Shown here: positions 9,123-43,028 of the stretch, piece by piece
How positions within the stretch are numbered: the first letter of the stretch is position 1
Layout of the letters: each line of letters begins with the position of its first letter
Source of the DNA: Melioribacteraceae bacterium
Lineage (GTDB): Bacteria; Bacteroidota; Ignavibacteria; Ignavibacteriales; Melioribacteraceae
Reading direction: 5' to 3'
NCBI GenBank assembly: GCA_021740785.1
Contig: JAIOZI010000047.1
Span: forward strand, 1 to 43,156
Length of the DNA stretch: 43,156 nucleotides
Notes under the pieces: generated by a model
Told to the model about the DNA's origin: nothing
The model's input: the letters and a program-made list of their open reading frames with translations, nothing else
The model's database searches: none
Program-made: the position numbers and the translations under genes

Positions 9123-9674
9123 ATGGAAGAATTAGAAAATAAACTTATACATGATTTTTTGGCTGGTAATGAAACAGCATTCAATAAACTAATTGATAAG
9201 TACCAGCAGAAAATATATTGGCACGCAAGAAGAATGTTGAATGATCATTTTGATGCTGATGATGTGACACAAGAAGTAATATTGGTTATTTATAAGAAGC
9301 TGAAAACATTTGATTTCAGGTCTTCACTATATACTTGGATTTATAGAATTACGACGACAAGAAGTTTAAATTACATAAAGAAGAGAAAAGTAAGGGAGTT
9401 CTTTTCACTTGATGATGCTCCCGAAAAAGAACTTAAACAAAATGATGATATTGTAAGCAATATTGATAATAAAGAAAAATTGAACCGATTGGATAAAATG
9501 TTAAAGAAGCTGCCTGATAAACAGAGAGAAGTATTTGTATTAAGAAATTTTGAAGAATTCTCATACCAGGAAATTTCAGAAATTACCGGTAAAAGTGTCG
9601 GAGCTTTAAAAGCAAATTATTTTCATGCATTAAAAAAAGTAACGGAGTTGATGAAAGATGACGAACAAAGATAG
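9123..9674 (+). CDS. ECF-type RNA polymerase sigma factor
   Basis: A group 4 sigma factor of about 183 residues. Region 2 begins IHDFLAGNETAFNKLIDKY and includes DADDVTQEV; region 4 contains LPDKQREVFVLRNFEEFS and the helix-turn-helix YQEISEITGKSVGALK. The frame opens at GTG 9081/ATG 9084, with other ATGs at 9105 and 9123. Start 9123 is preferred because it gives the usual 7-9 residues before region 2 and has AGGT upstream, but this is not certain. Its 3' end overlaps the anti-sigma gene by 17 nt. Confidence 0.9.
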   Translation: MEELENKLIHDFLAGNETAFNKLIDKYQQKIYWHARRMLNDHFDADDVTQEVILVIYKKLKTFDFRSSLYTWIYRITTTRSLNYIKKRKVREFFSLDDAPEKELKQNDDIVSNIDNKEKLNRLDKMLKKLPDKQREVFVLRNFEEFSYQEISEITGKSVGALKANYFHALKKVTELMKDDEQR

Positions 9675-31676: not shown

Positions 31677-32821
31677 AGAATGATTTTGAGGTAATCGTAA
31701 TTGGCAGTGGACCTTCAGGCTCGGTTGCGGCAATCTTACTGGCAAAAGCCGGAATTGATACTCTAATTATTGAGCGTGAGAAATTACCCAGACACAAAAC
31801 ATGCGGCGGCGGGCTCGTTAATAGGGCTAGAAACTATTTACCGGTGAACATACAAAAAGTTATTCACCGCGAATATTTTGAAGTATCGATTTTCGATCAT
31901 CAAAATAATTCCGAATTTATTGTCCGCGATTCTCTTCCGATAATTACAATGATTTTAAGAGAAGAATTTGATAATTATCTTGTGCGCTCTGCCGTAGAAA
32001 ATGGCGCCGGGATCTTTGATGATTGTAAAGTTTTAGATATTGAGGAAGAGGAGAAAAATGTAAGAGTAGAAACCGAACATGGAAATTACAATGCTGGCTT
32101 TGTGATAGGAGCCGACGGTGTTTATGGAATTTCCTCGAAAGTATTAGGCAACAGGCAAAATATAAAATGTCTGCCTGCAGTAGAAGCTGAAATTGAAACC
32201 GCGGATTCAAATTATAGAACTGAAATTGCACGATTTGATTTGGGGTTTTTCGATCATGGTTACGGTTGGACTTTCCCGAAACGAGATCACTTATCAGTGG
32301 GTGTAATAGCGTATAAATCCAACCAAGAAAATTTGAATAAACTTTTTGATGAATATGCTAAGAAACTTTCGTTGAATATTTTGAAAATTCATAAGCATGG
32401 TTTTGTAATTCCGTTTATTACAAAATACGGTAACATTTCAACAAAGAGAATATTATTAACGGGTGATGCTGCGGGATTTGTTGATCCGCTGACGGGTGAA
32501 GGAATCGGGAATGCAATTTTGAGCGGTAAATTTGCTGCACAAAGTATAATTGAAGGAGAATTAAATGTTGATTCTATCCAGTTAAGTTATCGCAATAAAA
32601 TAAAAGACGATATATTAATTGAATTAAAATACTCGGCATTCCTTGCTAAGCTTTTCTATAATCATCCTGCGGTTAGAAAATTCTTGCTGAAAAAATACGG
32701 GCAGCAATTTTCTGAAATAATGACAGATGTATTTGCAGGTAATAGAAAATATTCTACTTTACTGAAGAGCCCCTCTAATTATTTGAAACTTATCAAACCT
32801 TTAACCGGATTAACAGCTTAA
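31673..32821 (+). CDS. Geranylgeranyl reductase-family flavoprotein
   Basis: A 382-residue FAD-dependent protein. N-terminal Rossmann motif GSGPSGSVAAILLAKAG is followed by LPRHKTCGGGLVN, typical of the family. Later motifs are GYGWTFPKRDHLSVGV and GDAAGFVDPLTGEGIGNAI. Family members saturate prenyl chains of chlorophyll, archaeal lipids or menaquinone. The start overlaps the upstream unknown gene by 4 nt. In a non-phototroph the likely substrate is a quinone or lipid prenyl chain, but this is not shown here. Confidence 0.9.
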   Translation: MKNDFEVIVIGSGPSGSVAAILLAKAGIDTLIIEREKLPRHKTCGGGLVNRARNYLPVNIQKVIHREYFEVSIFDHQNNSEFIVRDSLPIITMILREEFDNYLVRSAVENGAGIFDDCKVLDIEEEEKNVRVETEHGNYNAGFVIGADGVYGISSKVLGNRQNIKCLPAVEAEIETADSNYRTEIARFDLGFFDHGYGWTFPKRDHLSVGVIAYKSNQENLNKLFDEYAKKLSLNILKIHKHGFVIPFITKYGNISTKRILLTGDAAGFVDPLTGEGIGNAILSGKFAAQSIIEGELNVDSIQLSYRNKIKDDILIELKYSAFLAKLFYNHPAVRKFLLKKYGQQFSEIMTDVFAGNRKYSTLLKSPSNYLKLIKPLTGLTA

Positions 32822-33417
32822 TTCGGATTTTTATCTAATGTAAATATTTTTAATGCCCGGTTTAAACCTCGAAGCATAATACTACCAATTTCAGAAATAT
32901 TAAATTCACGCGGGATATTTGTTAGGTTTATCAAATCTTCGGAGATTAAAATTTCCGTATTATATTTTTTACATTCGTTCAAGATACTTCTTGTATGTTT
33001 GAGAGCGTCACCACTAAATACGATTTCCTTTTTATCAAATCCGATTTTCCCGGCTATTACTTTTCCCATATGATAACCTGCCGTAAATTCCGGGTAAACG
33101 CCGAATTTTTCTTTATACCTTTCCAGCTTGTTATTAATGACATCTTTAATATCAAAGAAACAATTCAAGCAATCAATCGGGATACGATTTTCAGTAACTT
33201 TCCAAGAAACGATTAATTCTTCATTGGTAAATTTATAAACCCCGCCATTGCTATCGGAAATCGGTTTAGCAATGTCGGAGAAAAAATTATTAATAAATTC
33301 ATAGTATTTATCATATTGTAATTTTTCCGCAATTCCGGAAGTAGATTTAATTACAAGACACATGAAGCATCGTGTTTCCATTACAGGTTTATGATATTTC
33401 CCGGGTGGAAAATTCAT
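32818..33417 (-). CDS. Degenerate class III nucleotide cyclase-fold protein
   Basis: A 199-residue stand-alone domain alignable to the cyclase at 40245. Retained features are the AEKLQYDKYYEFINNFFSDI helix, the NGGVYKF segment, AGYHMGKVIAGKIG and SGDALK. Catalytic residues are lost: the first metal Asp aligns with Ile, the second with Glu in FTNEEL, the adenine-selecting Thr with Val, and the transition-state Asn/Arg with Lys/Ser. So it is likely a catalytically dead cyclase domain, perhaps regulatory or sequestering. GGAGGA lies upstream of the ATG. The end overlaps the flavoprotein stop by 4 nt, convergently. Confidence 0.78.
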   Translation of the reverse strand: MNFPPGKYHKPVMETRCFMCLVIKSTSGIAEKLQYDKYYEFINNFFSDIAKPISDSNGGVYKFTNEELIVSWKVTENRIPIDCLNCFFDIKDVINNKLERYKEKFGVYPEFTAGYHMGKVIAGKIGFDKKEIVFSGDALKHTRSILNECKKYNTEILISEDLINLTNIPREFNISEIGSIMLRGLNRALKIFTLDKNPN

Positions 33418-35286: not shown

Positions 35287-35910
35287 ATGTCAGAAACCAA
35301 CTCTTCAAATAACGCACAGCAAAGCTCAAAGATTTCTCCGCGTGTAAAGAAAGCTTTGGTGGATCTTCAGAAGATTGCCGCCGGAATAATTTATGACGGA
35401 CGTGTCGATGGTATGGAAATATTCCAACTAAAACGATGGCTTTCTTTGAATGATGACTTACTGGTGGGCTATCCTTTAAAAGATTTAAAAGATCTCTTTA
35501 ATGATATAATGGAAGATGGTGTTGTAACCAATGAAGAAAGACAACAGTTATTAAAATTTCTTAGAGTTATAAGTGCAAAGGATGAATCCCGTTCGGAGGT
35601 TGATGTTAAATTTACAGAGAAACCTTCAATTGATTTTAAAGGGAAGAATTTTGTGCTGCTCGGTAAAATGCGTTACACTACGAGAAGAAATGCAAGGAAT
35701 ACTATAAGGAAGAACGGTGGAAAAGTTATTAAAAATATTCGCATGGATACTGATTATTTAATTATCGGAGATATAATCAGCAGTATCCGGTTGAATGCTT
35801 ACCAAAGTAAAATTGATTACGCCAACAAAATTAACATTGAAGAGAACGGGAATATCCAAATTATAAAAGAGAGTGATTTTGTTAAATCTGTGATAGAATT
35901 CACAGAATAG
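35287..35910 (+). CDS. BRCT-domain protein
   Basis: A 207-residue cytosolic protein. The N-terminal part (about 20-100) is an acidic helical bundle (KALVDLQKIAAGIIYDGRVDG, then EDGVVTNEERQQLLKFL) reminiscent of TerB-like folds. The C-terminal part (about 115-200) is a BRCT domain: FKGKNFVLLGKM, then RKNGGKVIKNIRMDTDYLIIG and YANKINIEENGNIQII. BRCT domains bind DNA ends or phosphopeptides; bacterial stand-alone ones are found with NAD-dependent ligase relatives. Its job is unknown. It precedes an unrelated envelope cluster by about 95 nt. Confidence 0.82.
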   Translation: MSETNSSNNAQQSSKISPRVKKALVDLQKIAAGIIYDGRVDGMEIFQLKRWLSLNDDLLVGYPLKDLKDLFNDIMEDGVVTNEERQQLLKFLRVISAKDESRSEVDVKFTEKPSIDFKGKNFVLLGKMRYTTRRNARNTIRKNGGKVIKNIRMDTDYLIIGDIISSIRLNAYQSKIDYANKINIEENGNIQIIKESDFVKSVIEFTE

Positions 35911-36005: not shown

Positions 36006-37052
36006 ATGAAAAGGCTTAAATTAATCGTATCAACATTGGTCGTAATTCTTTGTCTGCCGTTAATGATCAATGCACAAAACATAACAATGACAGTAATAGA
36101 ACCGCTCCCGGAAATACCTTTCGCAGCATTTGCAATGGCAAACAGCCTGGAAGGCGCCCCTAGGATGTTCTATGCTTCAATCACAGGGAACGGAGAATAC
36201 AAACTTAGGGGAAGCGCCGGTTGGTCTAGTGACGGAACAGGCTCTAATTATACTGATATATTTGTATTCACAACAGAGAATTTTACCGTTAACGGGTCAA
36301 GAACAGTCTATAATGATGATTTAGGTAGTAAAATTCCAATACTTGAAACCGATACTCCCGATGATGATGCCATCGAAGAAAACATAAGACGCGGTAAACC
36401 AACCGGTAGATATTTGCTTACAGTACAGCTCTTGGATGCAAGCGGAAATGTATTGGCAAGTGCTGACAAAGATTTAGTATTTACAAATCCGGCGCAAACC
36501 CTAATAATCAGATCGCCCGAGACTGCATCTTTTCAGGGTGTTGGGGCTGTAATTGCTGAATGGGATGAAGTGATTGGCGCGTCATCATATATTGTAAGAG
36601 CAAATGTCAGGAGCAATCCTTCGCAATCACTGGAAGAAGCTTTGGATTTCGGCAGCCCTATTATTGATAGTAGAGATGTTGGAAATACGACAACAGTTAA
36701 TCTTAGGACAATTCTCAGTCGTGAATGGGCGCCCGGACAGGAAATAGTTCTGCAGGTTAGCGCAGTTGTTCCGGGATTGAGCGGCACCGGAGACTCTGAA
36801 CTTAGTTCTGAAATAATTAATTTTTATTTATATGATCCTGCCAATCAATTTACAAATCAATTATCAAGCAATGTTCAAGCGCTTGTTGATGCATTAACGG
36901 ACTTGGATATTAATCTTCCAGAAAATCTCGGTAATATTGAAAGCATTATGATTGACGGCATGCCGGTTAATTTGGCGCAACTTGAACAGACAATGATTTA
37001 TCTTAAAACCAACCCGGATGCTGTAGTTAATATAAAATTTTCAAATGATTAA
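36006..37052 (+). CDS. Exported beta-sandwich protein of the FecR/barrel/cyclase cluster
   Basis: A 348-residue protein with a signal peptide (VVILCLPLMINAQ). A region at about 165-265 (SPETASFQGVGAVIAEWDEV, then ASSYIVRANVRSN) resembles a fibronectin-III-type domain. The last segment (about 290-348) is helical. It has no catalytic motif that can be recognised. AAAGGAG precedes the ATG. It is followed 27 nt later by the FecR gene and so is the first gene of the apparent operon. Confidence 0.78.
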   Translation: MKRLKLIVSTLVVILCLPLMINAQNITMTVIEPLPEIPFAAFAMANSLEGAPRMFYASITGNGEYKLRGSAGWSSDGTGSNYTDIFVFTTENFTVNGSRTVYNDDLGSKIPILETDTPDDDAIEENIRRGKPTGRYLLTVQLLDASGNVLASADKDLVFTNPAQTLIIRSPETASFQGVGAVIAEWDEVIGASSYIVRANVRSNPSQSLEEALDFGSPIIDSRDVGNTTTVNLRTILSREWAPGQEIVLQVSAVVPGLSGTGDSELSSEIINFYLYDPANQFTNQLSSNVQALVDALTDLDINLPENLGNIESIMIDGMPVNLAQLEQTMIYLKTNPDAVVNIKFSND

Positions 37053-37079
37053 GCAATTATAAATATTGAGGAAATAAAA

Positions 37080-37784
37080 ATGAGTAGTAAAAACAATTAT
37101 TTTTCGTTATTAAGTTTCATTGCTATCCTTCTTTCTTTTAGTTTTTTAGGTTTGCTCCTTAAACCGGCGGATACTCCAATAGGCGTTGTTAATAAGGTTG
37201 TAAAGGATGTCACTTTTAAATCCGGCGACTCAGATTGGGTTGAAGCAAAGAGCGGGCTCACGCTAAAAGATCAAGATGTGATAAGAACAGGCACGCGGTC
37301 ATTAGCTCTAATCACTTATTTAGACGGTTCAATTATACGCGTAAGAGAAAAATCTGAGATTACTATCTATGGTGATAAATCCGAGGACAAATTAGACAAA
37401 AATACATATGTTGATGAAGGCAAGGTGAGCTTCGATGTAAAAAAACAATCGGAAGATGAGGAGTTTAAGTTTACCACGCCAACGATGGTTGCCTCAATTC
37501 GCGGAACCAGCGGTTTGCTCGAAGTAATGTCAAATCTTTCTTCTTCGCTCTCTTGTGAGTCGGGTGCAATTGAAGTATTATCAAAACTCGGCACAAAGCA
37601 GTCAGGGTCTATAGGCGCCGGGGAAACAGCATTTGTTGATCCGAATGGAAATCTTAACATCACACAAACTGAAGAGAATAAGAAGAAACAAATGCAGCAA
37701 TTAAAAAATGTTGATACAAAAAAGATTAGAATAAAAACAGAAAACGGAACAATAGAGATTGAGTATATTCCTGAAGGTAAATAA
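37080..37784 (+). CDS. FecR-domain protein
   Basis: A 234-residue protein with an N-terminal membrane/signal segment (LLSFIAILLSFSFLGLLL) and a FecR domain: VVKDVTFKSGDSDWVEAKSG, RTGTRSLALITYLDGS, IRVREKSEI and TPTMVASIRGTSG. FecR domains are periplasmic and in TonB/sigma systems pass a signal from an outer-membrane receptor. Here no sigma factor is adjacent and the neighbours are a barrel protein and a CHASE2 cyclase. The C-terminal tail is Lys-rich. Confidence 0.9.
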   Translation: MSSKNNYFSLLSFIAILLSFSFLGLLLKPADTPIGVVNKVVKDVTFKSGDSDWVEAKSGLTLKDQDVIRTGTRSLALITYLDGSIIRVREKSEITIYGDKSEDKLDKNTYVDEGKVSFDVKKQSEDEEFKFTTPTMVASIRGTSGLLEVMSNLSSSLSCESGAIEVLSKLGTKQSGSIGAGETAFVDPNGNLNITQTEENKKKQMQQLKNVDTKKIRIKTENGTIEIEYIPEGK

Positions 37785-37841
37785 TATTTTTAAAGGGGAA
37801 AAAATTAGTTCCAGAATACTAATAAAACTAAGAGAGCGGAA

Positions 37842-40241
37842 ATGAATATTTTTAAAAGAAACTTATCAGTTGTTTTATTCATAAGTATTTTGATGCTCTT
37901 TGCATCAAGTTTGTTTGCGCAGGTCTCAGAGTATATCTCATCGGTTAAAACTGGTGATGCAAAGGATGGTCAGCCATTCTACATATCGGTTGAATTGGTT
38001 CAGTCCTCTAATATTGGCGAGATACTTGTAGTTTACAGACCTTATGGTCAGAGTGATTTCGAAAAAATTGAAATGGATTTGCTTGGTATGACTGCAACAG
38101 CAACCATTCCCGGAGATGATGTTATACTTCCGTATATAGAATTTTATATTCTTATTGAATTAGCAGACGGTTCGTTTTCAACACATCCACCGGGAGCGCC
38201 TGATACTGCTCCGCCGCTTCAAGCAAATGTTGTTACAATTTCACCCAAGGATGAAGAAGTTATTATAATGTCGCCGCTGCCTGATGAACCGGTAGGGCAG
38301 GATGAACTTTTCATATCACTTTCACTATTGAAAACTTCTGATTCCGTTGATAAGTCAAAGACTAAAATTTATTTGAATAATATTGATATAACATCGTCCG
38401 CATTATTTGCTGACGATTTAATTTTAGTCAGCGGTGAAAATCTTCCTTCTACTGTTGGTCTCGGTGCACAGAATCTAAAGATAGAGCTTTTTGATAAGGA
38501 TGGTAACCTCTACCATTCGGTTTCAAAAGGATTTACAGTTACCCCCGGGACCGGAAGTGATTTTTATGCGGCTAGATTCAATTACACCGGCAGCGTTAAG
38601 GGTGAATCCCGTAATGAAAGATACAATGATCAATCAACTTGGTATAATAATCTCCGGTTGAATTTCAACGGTGATTACTCCGATTGGAAATTTGATGCAG
38701 ATGTTTATGTCACATCCGAAGAAAAAGTTTATCTGCAACCGCAAAACAGATACACAGCAAAAATCAGAAGCAGTTGGATGAATTTGCAAATTGGGGATAA
38801 CTACCCAACATTCCCAAAATTGATTATGAACGGTAAACGAATCCGCGGTATTTCAGGCGCTGTAAATTTAGGCTTTTTTAATGTACAGGCAAGTTTTGGG
38901 CAAGTAAGAAGAGATGTTGAAGGAAACATTTTGGAATATTTTTCAAGAGCGACAGCTCCTCTTGGTTCTAACGTAATTGAGATCGATTCAGCTAAATACG
39001 GACAACCTTTTGCGAGAGCCAATCTTGGAACGTATAATAGAAATCTGTTTGCCCTTCGTCCTTCTTTCGGTTCCGGCGAAACATTTCAGATAGGTTTTTC
39101 ATATCTGCATTCCGGCGATGATTATCAGTCGATCGAATTTGGAGGTTCACCGCAGGAAAATGCTGTTGTCGGCACTGATCTCAAACTTAATCTAGACAAC
39201 AGGAGAATTCAAATAAGAGGTGAAGCAGCCGTTAGTATTTTTAACAGTGATATTTCAGAGGGAGAACTGTCGGATGCCGAAATTGATGCAGTATTCGGTA
39301 CAGACGGATTTTTTGATGTAAGCCCCGATGATGTCAGATCCCTGCGCGATGTTATCAGTCCGTTTATAACTGTCAACCAATACTTAAAGCCCCTCAATCC
39401 TCAGGAGTTATCAACACTTGCCAGTGAAGCTGAATTATCATTAAATTATTTTAACAATAGATTGAGTGCAAAATATCTCTACCGTGGAAATGATTATAAA
39501 TCATTCGGTCAGTCTTTTATAAGAACAGACGTTGCAGGTATTAATTTGCGGGATCGTTTAAGGCTTATTGACAACCAGGTCTTTGTATCACTCGGTTTTG
39601 AGAGCCTGAAGGACAATCTTCAAAACACAAAAATTGCAACAACTACTTCTCAAACTATCAATACCAGTGTTTCTTATTTCCCGAGAATCGATTTTCCAAA
39701 CTTAACGATCGGGTATACACGTTATCAGAACGATAATGGATTGAGTATGGCTGATACAAATAATGTGGATTTTATTGTCGATGATGCAACAAATCGATTC
39801 CTAACTCAAATATCTTATGATGTTATGCTTGGTGTAAAACATAATACTTCATTAAATTTTTCAACTTCCTCAAGAGATGATAATTCGATAAACAATGCAG
39901 ATAATAAAACAACTTCCGCTGCTTTGAATATTACCAGCCCCTGGAACAGGCAATTGACAAGCTACTTTACATTTTCATATTTCTCAAGTGAAATCTCAAC
40001 AATTCCTTATGATTATGTAATGCTGTCGCTGGGCGCTAAATATAAAATGCTGGAAGATAAATTAACCTTAACAGGAACTTACAGCCCGAGTTTCGGTGAT
40101 TTCGAAAGACAGGCAATCGACTTAATCGGTTCTTACGATGTTATGCAGAATTTAAGTCTCATTATGCAGGTGCGATTTTATAGTATCAGCGGAGCCGGTA
40201 GTAATTCAATTATTGGTTTAACGACACGATATAATATTTAA
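37842..40241 (+). CDS. Large outer-membrane beta-barrel protein
   Basis: A 799-residue protein with a signal peptide (VVLFISILMLFASSLFAQ). The N-terminal 200 or so residues look like periplasmic/extracellular beta-sandwich domains (DGQPFYISVELVQSS; KTKIYLNNIDITSSA). The rest alternates aromatic strands (LRLNFNGDYSDWKFDADVYV; GAVNLGFFNVQASFG) and ends MQVRFYSISGAGSNS...RYNI, like a barrel. No known transport family is recognised. It follows FecR after 57 nt and the cyclase begins 3 nt later. Confidence 0.82.
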   Translation: MNIFKRNLSVVLFISILMLFASSLFAQVSEYISSVKTGDAKDGQPFYISVELVQSSNIGEILVVYRPYGQSDFEKIEMDLLGMTATATIPGDDVILPYIEFYILIELADGSFSTHPPGAPDTAPPLQANVVTISPKDEEVIIMSPLPDEPVGQDELFISLSLLKTSDSVDKSKTKIYLNNIDITSSALFADDLILVSGENLPSTVGLGAQNLKIELFDKDGNLYHSVSKGFTVTPGTGSDFYAARFNYTGSVKGESRNERYNDQSTWYNNLRLNFNGDYSDWKFDADVYVTSEEKVYLQPQNRYTAKIRSSWMNLQIGDNYPTFPKLIMNGKRIRGISGAVNLGFFNVQASFGQVRRDVEGNILEYFSRATAPLGSNVIEIDSAKYGQPFARANLGTYNRNLFALRPSFGSGETFQIGFSYLHSGDDYQSIEFGGSPQENAVVGTDLKLNLDNRRIQIRGEAAVSIFNSDISEGELSDAEIDAVFGTDGFFDVSPDDVRSLRDVISPFITVNQYLKPLNPQELSTLASEAELSLNYFNNRLSAKYLYRGNDYKSFGQSFIRTDVAGINLRDRLRLIDNQVFVSLGFESLKDNLQNTKIATTTSQTINTSVSYFPRIDFPNLTIGYTRYQNDNGLSMADTNNVDFIVDDATNRFLTQISYDVMLGVKHNTSLNFSTSSRDDNSINNADNKTTSAALNITSPWNRQLTSYFTFSYFSSEISTIPYDYVMLSLGAKYKMLEDKLTLTGTYSPSFGDFERQAIDLIGSYDVMQNLSLIMQVRFYSISGAGSNSIIGLTTRYNI

Positions 40242-40244
40242 CAA

Positions 40245-42452
40245 ATGGCTCTTTCAAAAAGACCGAAGAGAGAAAGCCTAATAGAGAGCGGTATTGCTTT
40301 ACTAACTGCAGTAATTGTGTTGTTAATAACACAGGAAATATTTTTTACTCTTTCACCTCTTAAAGAACTCGAATTAAATTTACTCGACGACCGTTTTCTC
40401 GCAAGGGGAGAACGGCCGTTGGGAGATTCTTCCCACGTTGTAATAGTTGAAATAAATCAAGAATCATTCAATCAAATTCCTTCACCTTACAATAATTGGC
40501 CGTGGCCTAGATCAGTATTTGCAAAATTGGTTGAGAATCTTAACGAAGCGGGTGTAAGAGCTATCGGGATAGACGTTGTGATGTCTTACGAAGACCAATT
40601 TAGTCCTCTAAATGATTCTTTGTTTATGAATGCAATCCGCAAGTATGGAAATGTTGTGGTTGGCGGAACGATACGAAGAGAAAAAATTGAAGAATCCGGG
40701 AAGGGGAAGTATACAAATCCAAAGGAAAATTTTGGGAATTTATTTTTTGATGCGGATAGTTCGGTAGGACTAGTAAATACTTTCACTGATAATGACGGCG
40801 TTGTTCGCCGGTATTACCCTTTTGCATATTATGAAGTGACGGAAAAGAGAGTCCCCTCATTTGGTTTTGCGGTGTTGAACAAGTATTACGGTTTACCGAC
40901 CGATTATACTGTTGAGATAGAGGAAGAAAATTTTTTTCTTGGCAATATAAAAATTCCCAGGTATGATGCCCAAAACATGCTGGTTAATTTTTATGGAATC
41001 GATAAAGACAACACCTTTCCGAATTATAAATTCATAAATGTTATTGATGATAACGAGTTTAAAACTGTTGATGATATTGATTATGGAGTTGATTTAGATT
41101 CATGGGATGATCCGAATTATCAGAAAAATTTCAAAGATAAAATTGTACTTGTCGGTTCCACGTTACCGGAAGATCGTGATATTATTCCGGTTTCAATTTC
41201 ACGCGGACAGAGATCAGGCGATAACCTGATGTATGGCGTTTTTTATCATGCTAATGCAATTGAGAATGTTATACGTCAGGATTTTCTTAAAAAACAAACT
41301 GAAACATCAAAAATAATTGAAGTTATTTTTCTCACTCTTCTAATGTTTTTTATCTCTTCTATGATAAAGCGTCTCAAACTGAGAGGCTATCTTCTTGAGC
41401 TAATTAACATTATAATTGCAGCCGGATTGATCTACTTAATTTATGAATCATCATTTTACTTTTTTATATCAGACAGTTTTGTAATATCCATTGTTGCTCC
41501 GGCAATTGCTATTGTACTCGGATACTTCAGCAGTACTGCTTATCATTTTATTTCAGCCCGTCAGCAAAGTACAATGATTAAGGGAATGTTCAGTCAATAC
41601 GTCAGCGGCGAATTTGTAGATGAGTTAATCACAGATCCGGATAAGATGAGATTGGGTGGTGAGAACAAAGATTTATCTATCTTCTTTTCCGATATCGCGG
41701 GGTTTTCAAGTGTTTCGGAGAAGATGAGCGCTGAAGAACTTGTAAGAATTATGAATGAATATCTTGGTGAATTAACCGATATAATAATTCATCAAGGCGG
41801 CACACTTGATAAATATATCGGTGATGCAATAATGGCATTCTGGGGAGCTCCTATCTGTATTGAGGATCACGCATACAAAGCATGTTACTCGGCATTGTTA
41901 ACGCAGGAACGGTTAACCGAATTAAATGCCGAATGGGAGAAACAAGGTATCCCAAAATTATCTGCAAGAATTGGTATTAATTCGGGCGAGGTTGTTGTTG
42001 GTAATATCGGCAGCACAAAACGATTCAATTACACGGTGATGGGTGATAATGTAAATCTGGCATCAAGATTGGAAGGCGCTAATAAACAGTACGGTACTTT
42101 AATGATGATTAGTGATTCTACCTATTTTCAAGTTAATGATAAAATTTATTGCCGGGAACTGGATATTATTCGTGTAAAAGGGAGGACGACTCCAACCACA
42201 GTTTATGAATTGATTGGACTAATAACCGATCCGAAATCGGCTGAGTTTATTGGTGCCCTGGAATGTTACTTCAAAGGACTAGAACTTTATAAGAAGCGGA
42301 ATTTTAACGAAGCAACTTCATACTTTGAAAAATGTCATTCCAGTGAATTGAAAGATAGTCCGTCAAAAGTCTACGCGGATAGATGCAAGTTTTATGTAGA
42401 AAACCCACCGGGAGACGATTGGGATGGAGTTTTCACTATGGTAACTAAATAA
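40245..42452 (+). CDS. CHASE2-domain class III adenylate cyclase
   Basis: A 735-residue inner-membrane protein. After one N-terminal helix comes an extracytoplasmic CHASE2 domain (about 40-360; LLDDRFLARGERP, VVIVEINQESF, WPWPRSVFAKL, AIGIDVVMSYED). Three membrane helices follow (about 368-440), then the cyclase domain. Metal Asps are D483 (FFSDIAGFS) and D527 (YIGDAIMAFW). K523 and T597 select adenine, and N604 and R608 (GDNVNLASR) stabilise the transition state. All expected active-site residues are present, so it should make cAMP. It begins 3 nt after the barrel gene. Confidence 0.95.
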   Translation: MALSKRPKRESLIESGIALLTAVIVLLITQEIFFTLSPLKELELNLLDDRFLARGERPLGDSSHVVIVEINQESFNQIPSPYNNWPWPRSVFAKLVENLNEAGVRAIGIDVVMSYEDQFSPLNDSLFMNAIRKYGNVVVGGTIRREKIEESGKGKYTNPKENFGNLFFDADSSVGLVNTFTDNDGVVRRYYPFAYYEVTEKRVPSFGFAVLNKYYGLPTDYTVEIEEENFFLGNIKIPRYDAQNMLVNFYGIDKDNTFPNYKFINVIDDNEFKTVDDIDYGVDLDSWDDPNYQKNFKDKIVLVGSTLPEDRDIIPVSISRGQRSGDNLMYGVFYHANAIENVIRQDFLKKQTETSKIIEVIFLTLLMFFISSMIKRLKLRGYLLELINIIIAAGLIYLIYESSFYFFISDSFVISIVAPAIAIVLGYFSSTAYHFISARQQSTMIKGMFSQYVSGEFVDELITDPDKMRLGGENKDLSIFFSDIAGFSSVSEKMSAEELVRIMNEYLGELTDIIIHQGGTLDKYIGDAIMAFWGAPICIEDHAYKACYSALLTQERLTELNAEWEKQGIPKLSARIGINSGEVVVGNIGSTKRFNYTVMGDNVNLASRLEGANKQYGTLMMISDSTYFQVNDKIYCRELDIIRVKGRTTPTTVYELIGLITDPKSAEFIGALECYFKGLELYKKRNFNEATSYFEKCHSSELKDSPSKVYADRCKFYVENPPGDDWDGVFTMVTK

Positions 42453-42511: not shown

Positions 42512-42587
42512 TTTCTGGTTTCTTGTTACTGGTTACTGGTTACTAGTTTCTTGTCACTGGCTTCTGGCTTCTGGCTTCTGGTTTCTG
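42512..42587. repeat. CTGGTT/CTGGCTT low-complexity array
   Basis: Short tandem words TTACTGG, TTTCTTG and CTGGCTT repeat for about 75 bp. It is the counterpart of the array at 231-315 but on the opposite strand. Confidence 0.85.
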
Positions 42588-42705
42588 CCTGCCACGGCGA
42601 AGTCGGTTTTTGACGAACCTGTCTACGGATAGGTAGAGACGGGCCTGCCACGGCGAAGTCGGTTTTTGACGAACCTGTCTACGGATAGGTAGAGACGGGC
42701 CTGCC
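42587..42705. repeat. Two tandem copies of a 56-bp unit plus a partial third
   Basis: The unit starts GCCTGCCACGGCGAAGTC and repeats exactly at 42587 and 42643, with a short third start at 42699. Each unit contains TCTAC/GTAGA separated by GGATAG, a small hairpin. G+C is much higher than the surroundings. Confidence 0.92.
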
Positions 42706-42898: not shown

Positions 42899-43028
42899 TT
42901 GATTAAAACAACCCCCAGCAGGGTTGAACATGTTCTTTCATATTCAACCACTCCGTGGTTGTGTTTTCTTTCTCAATTTAGGCTAATCACATTGAACCCC
43001 TATCGGGGTTCAAAAACATTTTAACCCA
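42899..43028 (-). repeat. Multi-hairpin dispersed repeat, right copy
   Basis: This 130-bp block is the reverse complement of 4325-4453 with about five differences. One difference turns an A-T pair of the 10-bp stem into a G-T wobble, keeping the structure; another adds one G in the last hairpin. Confidence 0.88.

Follow-up and report, generated by a model that had tools for sequence, protein, structure and literature searches.

A conserved four-gene operon in a Melioribacteraceae bacterium joins a FecR-domain protein and a predicted 26-strand barrel to a CHASE2 adenylate cyclase

Can an event at the outer surface of a bacterium be passed through the periplasm to an adenylate cyclase by proteins that are encoded in a single operon? 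This question is raised by a locus in contig JAIOZI010000047.1 of a Melioribacteraceae bacterium (assembly GCA_021740785.1), the whole 43,156-nucleotide (nt) stretch of which was analysed and is referred to here as the window. Four consecutive genes lie on its + strand at 36006-42452 with intergenic gaps of 27, 57 and 3 nt; the coordinates of the open reading frames (ORFs) agree in this with the original prediction, which had been made from the sequence alone. By analogy with the NsrA-CyaK system of the plant symbiont Sinorhizobium meliloti, we consider that the operon probably functions as a relay from the outer surface to cyclic AMP (cAMP) that runs through the FecR-domain protein, one that is like NsrA-CyaK but split over more genes. 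The four genes, together with the parts of them that matter most here, are as follows.

36006..37052, + strand: gene 1, an exported protein of 348 residues that has a hydrophobic segment at its N-terminus, then two FnIII/Ig-like domains and, at its C-terminus, a helical tail
37080..37784, + strand: gene 2, a FecR-domain protein of 234 residues with an N-terminal hydrophobic segment (Pfam and hydropathy)
37842..40241, + strand: gene 3, a predicted outer-membrane protein of 799 residues with an N-terminal hydrophobic segment, beta domains and a 26-strand barrel
38919..39026, + strand: residues 360-395 of gene 3, the loop that connects barrel strands 7 and 8, predicted to lie at the surface; mean conservation 0.21 (whole protein, 0.48)
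40245..42452, + strand: gene 4, a CHASE2-domain adenylate cyclase of 735 residues with four predicted transmembrane segments
40326..41342, + strand: CHASE2 domain of gene 4 (Pfam), predicted to be periplasmic
41667..42203, + strand: class III cyclase catalytic domain of gene 4 (Pfam and alignment), with conserved catalytic positions

The original prediction would have fallen had the four genes been neighbours only in this genome, and this is not the case: a co-occurrence search of the kind it proposed found the four-gene order kept across several phyla. In a cyclase-based scan of genome contigs (111 confirmed stretches, 80 of them retained), 78 loci had a cyclase ORF of more than 400 residues, the window and two paralogues from the same genome included. 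All four genes were present at 26 of these 78 loci, some of them at 10, and the cyclase alone at 42; note that some of the incomplete loci stop at contig edges. Judged by record titles, the 25 four-gene relatives of the window come from Ignavibacteria, other Bacteroidetes, Chlorobiaceae, Calditrichota/Calditrichales, KSB1 and Marinimicrobia; for the cyclase-only loci the title is in many cases Deltaproteobacteria, Bdellovibrionales, Calditrichota or cyanobacteria.

When 296 genomes from the phylum were searched with an alignment of the barrel protein, 126 had a match of some kind and 74, among them the window's own, had a strong match (E up to 6e-50). A few of the 74 strong matches are partial, and the weaker ones often involve frames of 560-600 residues that have part of the barrel. 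At 74 barrel-anchored loci from 73 other genomes the cyclase was found downstream in 63, FecR upstream in 63 and gene 1 upstream in 63, with all four genes at 60 loci. (The window's own locus was excluded from this count, and five of the first 30 loci were swapped for longer stretches.) The complete operon is thereby present in 61 of the 296 sampled genomes, or about a fifth, when the window's own is included. Note that ORFs were called mechanically and that tables of neighbours missed FecR genes lying under longer antisense ORFs, so the counts at the 74 loci use matches to profiles, which were widened using the loci themselves. Two presences in these counts are doubtful, namely gene 1 at L136 (2501 nt away) and FecR at L141 (an ORF of 568 residues, 1010 nt away); at L090, where the sequence is a short 5.4-kb piece, gene 1 is missing. 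The gap between barrel and cyclase has a median of 5 nt and a maximum of 154 nt (63 loci), and that between FecR and barrel a median of 56 nt. Overall, once duplicates were removed and the window was included, the number of four-gene loci with different barrel sequences came to 82, and the recurrence of the arrangement in so many distinct loci counts against chance.

The presence of FecR is concordant with that of the cyclase at 70 of the 74 barrel-anchored loci (both present at 61, both absent at 9). Three of the four discordant loci lie at contig ends, two of these being pieces of one genome (G172); the fourth, L163, has FecR and the barrel, and the CHASE2 genes of its genome are on other contigs. 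Moreover, among the FecR proteins of the 26 four-gene loci, 11 have at their C-terminus a further copy of a domain of the barrel protein, namely the first of its N-terminal domains (E 1e-31 to 9e-28), which argues that FecR and the barrel are tied to one another architecturally. The same copy is carried by the FecR proteins of the incomplete loci L017 and L018, and over all loci the barrel profile matched 14 of 86 FecR proteins, two of which represent one duplicated locus. (The gene 2 product of the window is without the copy.) Pairwise distance matrices of the four proteins from 57 complete loci were also correlated, with r between 0.93 and 0.96, compared with 0.22 for the largest of 500 shuffles; this indicates that the four genes are inherited as a unit, and nothing further.

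Gene 4 matches CHASE2 (PF05226, E 1.5e-51) and Guanylate_cyc (PF00211, E 5e-25), and its hydropathy profile has a stretch at about residues 11-29, a long loop that holds CHASE2, and further stretches at about 356-374, 381-399 and 407-425, followed by the cyclase domain. With one transmembrane segment before it and three after it, CHASE2 should be periplasmic, as the original prediction had it. That prediction had also called the cyclase intact, and in an alignment of 26 cyclases that includes CyaK the residues D483, K523, D527, N604 and R608 show no variation, and T597 shows almost none. Judging from these conserved positions, whose catalytic roles we have taken over from class III cyclases in general, the enzyme should be active; the K/T pair presumably marks ATP as its substrate. 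All of the matches listed in a sequence search of the PDB with gene 4 fall on the catalytic part, and none on CHASE2. (Near the cyclase end there is a DWDGVF motif, at 42417-42434, which is present in the consensus of the 26 cyclases and was used as a query peptide.)

Hydropathy gives each of genes 1, 2 and 3 an N-terminal hydrophobic stretch. Gene 2 is the sole match to Pfam FecR (PF04773, E 3.3e-13) in the 4.85 Mb genome; at E 0.1 it has no other Pfam domain and no anti-sigma N-terminal domain, and a sequence search of the PDB gave no match at E 1. A Pfam scan of the contig supports the earlier statement that FecR is accompanied here by neither a neighbouring sigma factor nor a TonB-type receptor: no gene for an extracytoplasmic function (ECF) sigma factor adjoins FecR, the sole Sigma70_r2 match on the contig, which extends 704 nt beyond gene 4, lying at 9189-9389, about 27 kb off. 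As in the FecI/FecR/FecA system, the window encodes a predicted periplasmic FecR domain together with an outer-membrane barrel that is a possible source of signal; it differs from that system in that its output is a cyclase, that no sigma factor gene adjoins FecR, and that neither an anti-sigma nor a plug or STN domain was found.

At E 0.1, gene 3 has no match among the families of Pfam and NCBIfam. An AlphaFold2 model built with 26 sequences (mean predicted local distance difference test score (pLDDT) 81.5, predicted template modelling score (pTM) 0.60) has two N-terminal beta domains at about residues 30-236 and then a barrel at 247-798 with 26 strands, each of at least 7 residues. In the model, turns of 1-7 residues (even to odd strands) alternate with loops of 2-57 residues (odd to even strands), which is the pattern of an outer-membrane barrel and would place the N-terminal domains in the periplasm. 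Among the eight loops of at least 9 residues, that at 360-395 is the least conserved, and the model makes it a candidate for contact with a ligand; conservation of the other seven is between 0.37 and 0.68. The best match of the model in the PDB is MtrB (6r2q), with Z 21.1 over 432 residues at 4.3 A, the next entry having Z 17.5. The predicted 26-strand barrel is the likeness to MtrB/PioB; as differences, neither gene 3 nor the 26 members of its family (E 0.01) match the MtrB-type Pfam family, and there is no multihaem cytochrome partner, the CXXCH haem motif being absent from genes 1-4. On the model, the resemblance between gene 3 and MtrB is one of fold only. Plug, STN or TonB-dependent receptor domains were likewise found neither in gene 3 (Pfam, E 0.1) nor in the 26 members (E 0.01).

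Gene 1 shows the lowest conservation among the four proteins, with a median identity of 19% over 57 loci, and at E 0.1 it matches nothing in Pfam or NCBIfam; Pfam matches among 26 members of its family were scattered, each occurring in a single member. Its model (mean pLDDT 82.2, pTM 0.54) has two FnIII/Ig-like domains at about residues 23-277 and a helical C-terminal tail. In a comparison of the model with the PDB (VIA-align), the 50 matches listed have Z 8.5-9.8, many of them being to FnIII/Ig chains, with no standout; these matches reflect a common fold only, and the comparison barely covers the tail (about residues 278-348).

The original prediction held that the combination of genes is not a known system, which is too strong, since three described systems join FecR with a CHASE2 receptor. 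The closest is that of S. meliloti, where nsrA on pSymB shares one base with the CHASE2 cyclase gene cyaK. NsrA matches FecR in Pfam (E 2.3e-15, at residues 66-160), has TPRs up to residue 587, and is described as having a C-terminal barrel at residues 600-1200 (PMC7529298). The response to signal 1, an external protein for which the ribosomal protein uL2 is the candidate, is reported to depend on both NsrA and CyaK (PMC7529298; PMC13001267). NsrA-CyaK (with CyaD1/D2 and Clr) and the window are alike in having a barrel gene beside a CHASE2 adenylate cyclase gene and a FecR domain in both, and hhalign aligns the FecR region of NsrA with that of the window's family at a probability of 97.6% over 168 columns. 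They differ in that NsrA combines FecR, TPRs and barrel in one protein of 1200 residues whereas the window has separate FecR and barrel genes, and in the extra exported FnIII-like protein of the window's operon.

In Campylobacterota, a CHASE2 adenylate cyclase is described as clustered with a FecR-domain outer-membrane protein, a TPR protein and a phosphodiesterase (PMC9239204). The clustering of the cyclase with a FecR-domain outer-membrane protein is the likeness to the window; the phosphodiesterase and the TPR protein that this cluster has in addition would be a difference, neither being seen among the upstream neighbours in the window (no such families in Pfam in the six ORFs upstream of gene 1, downstream of the operon only 704 nt of contig being available). 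The BiofilmReg operon of Burkholderia pairs a LysM-FecR protein with a CHASE2 histidine kinase (PMC5192318). There too an exported FecR-domain protein is encoded beside a CHASE2 receptor, and the differences are that the output is a histidine kinase with a response regulator, that FecR is joined to LysM, and that the portion of the paper available describes no barrel. Thus the principle has been published; the split four-gene form, the 26-strand barrel and the spread of the operon were not found in the literature searched. Specifically, we found no description of the four-gene operon in Ignavibacteria or Bacteroidota, in a literature search whose coverage has most subscription journals outside it.

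The original prediction proposed that an event at the outer surface is passed by the barrel and FecR to the cyclase and becomes cAMP. This is the most likely reading, with NsrA-CyaK as its precedent; for the present organism we infer the contacts, the direction of control, the signal and the output. In such a relay the 26-strand barrel would be the surface receptor, probably in combination with the exported FnIII-like protein, and the exported FecR protein would sit in the periplasm between the N-terminal domains of the barrel protein and CHASE2. A change at the barrel would alter the engagement of CHASE2 by FecR and hence the production of cAMP, with FecR either activating or restraining the cyclase, and the cAMP would be read by one or more of the cyclic nucleotide monophosphate (cNMP)-binding proteins of the genome, in which nine cNMP-binding domains were found. 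We take FecR to be the periplasmic partner of CHASE2 because, beyond the CHASE2 cyclase and the presence of a barrel, the FecR domain is what NsrA-CyaK and the window's operon have in common, and the barrels are unlike in sequence. The literature that we found on surface signalling to CHASE2 cyclases concerns one symbiont. The operon suggests that CHASE2 probably has its partner in the FecR domain, which NsrA has as well, and this is directly testable; since receptor, relay and enzyme are encoded by separate genes, each step can be removed alone.

Several observations weigh against such a relay. First, the resemblance to NsrA is incomplete, as no TPR family was found in genes 1-4 at E 0.1 and the barrel showed no sequence relation to that of NsrA (HMMER; hhalign probability 0.2%; this is a comparison of sequences only). 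Another FecR-domain protein, SMc02177, is also to be listed here. Second, the agreement between the distance matrices is equally expected from plain vertical inheritance. Third, the partners can be found apart. At 9 of the 74 barrel-anchored loci the barrel is without FecR or a cyclase alongside (L119, L120, L121, L130, L133, L136, L137, L146 and L160, which come from four families and are non-independent); at L119, L130 and L137, the three whose neighbours were read, a HIT-type gene and a small TPR gene, recognised by eye, precede the barrel, which is another setting of the barrel family. Eight of these nine genomes have CHASE2 genes elsewhere, and of 15 such loci that were read only 2 have a neighbour that matches the FecR profile, weakly in both cases (L173, 23 bits; L184, 19 bits). 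Moreover, the 42 cyclase-only loci, some of them cut by contig ends, indicate that many CHASE2 cyclases have no FecR nearby and that CHASE2 does not depend on it in general.

Next to the relay that we favour, an alternative that seems rather unlikely, though better placed than the others, is that the cell monitors its own envelope: barrel, FecR and exported protein would form a complex for secretion, transport or adhesion, and the cyclase would report its state of assembly, or envelope stress, with no external ligand. MtrB, the best structural match, is a barrel that encloses a periplasmic partner, and LptD is a 26-strand barrel too. The fairly conserved state of seven of the eight longer surface loops would suit a constant partner, and in some lineages genes recognised by eye as dxr and as rseP, for a site-2 protease, precede the operon. 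This last context is limited to those lineages and looks like inherited chromosomal context, and the closest characterised system, NsrA-CyaK, reports an external protein, as far as the sources cited above describe it.

We regard it as improbable that FecR and CHASE2 alone sense a periplasmic cue, with the barrel and the exported protein forming a co-controlled nutrient porin or uptake system. At L186 FecR and the cyclase are complete, with 60% and 73% identity to their counterparts at L161, and the barrel and gene 1 persist only as traces, a 53-residue end and a 42-residue piece, respectively; L186, however, is a single genome, in which the locus is possibly decaying or misassembled. At L173, L184 and L185 a CHASE2 cyclase follows a weakly FecR-like protein and a protein of 1500-1600 residues in place of a barrel, the latter being assigned NHL/TPR by Pfam at L173 and L185 and similar by eye at L184. 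The FecR-like proteins of L173 and L185 carry TPRs and lack a Pfam FecR match, and that of L185, which has no profile match either, is even more degenerate. Against independent roles for the barrel and the cyclase stands their tight spacing (a median of 5 nt, compared with 56 nt between FecR and the barrel). Finally, it is very improbable that the genes are co-transcribed without a shared mechanism and that gene 2 is a conventional anti-sigma or iron-signalling regulator, a reading that has the name of the domain in its favour and that we reject, given an order kept across phyla, a FecR domain as the only domain of gene 2, no adjacent sigma factor and no TonB-dependent receptor domains.

A broader reading, unlikely as it may be in its full extent, is that FecR and CHASE2 form a general, interchangeable periplasmic core to which varied outer modules and outputs are fitted. 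The outer modules would include FecR-TPR-barrel fusions, the separate 26-strand barrel with its FnIII-like protein and possibly, as another such module, the large NHL/TPR proteins of L173, L184 and L185; the outputs would include a cyclase and a histidine kinase. The MtrB-sized barrel of Bacteroidota would on this reading sheathe a partner that touches both the outside and CHASE2, without TonB or a sigma factor.

The genome of the window has two further CHASE2 genes. At L086 (G000:C47, 1-12667) a CHASE2 cyclase lies within a run of exported proteins, its neighbours being a 970-residue TPR protein with an end that looks barrel-like by eye, a DUF4384-like protein (below cut-off) and a VWA/TPR/OmpA/SPOR protein. 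At L087 (G000:C21, 6495-8933) CHASE2 is fused to a sigma54-activator AAA+ domain, a pairing with a transcriptional output; exported proteins are encoded downstream, one of them transglutaminase-like and one weakly FecR-like (about 4 kb downstream, 19.7 bits by profile, with no match in Pfam). Judged by sequence, CHASE2 in this genome appears to be accompanied by envelope proteins, with a clear FecR at one of the three loci only.

Around the operon, a BRCT-domain ORF at 35287-35910 was considered as a fifth member and dropped, as phmmer over the ORFs of 84 sequences matched it to itself alone. On the - strand at 32818-33417, 2.6 kb upstream of the operon, there is an ORF of 199 residues similar to the C-terminal half of class III cyclases (Pfam E 0.05, which is below cut-off; also matched by the cyclase profile); metal-binding positions appear by eye to be missing, and from its sequence it is a possible stand-alone pseudo-cyclase. 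A scan for promoter-like and terminator-like sites was uninformative (31 against 26.8 expected and 4 against 5.3 expected, respectively). The 704 nt between the end of gene 4 and the end of the contig contain a terminator-like site at 42945-42961. Just 3' of the operon, at 42587-42705, is a tandem repeat with a 56-base unit in 2.1 identical copies, and adjoining it, at 42512-42587, is an array with a 7-base period.

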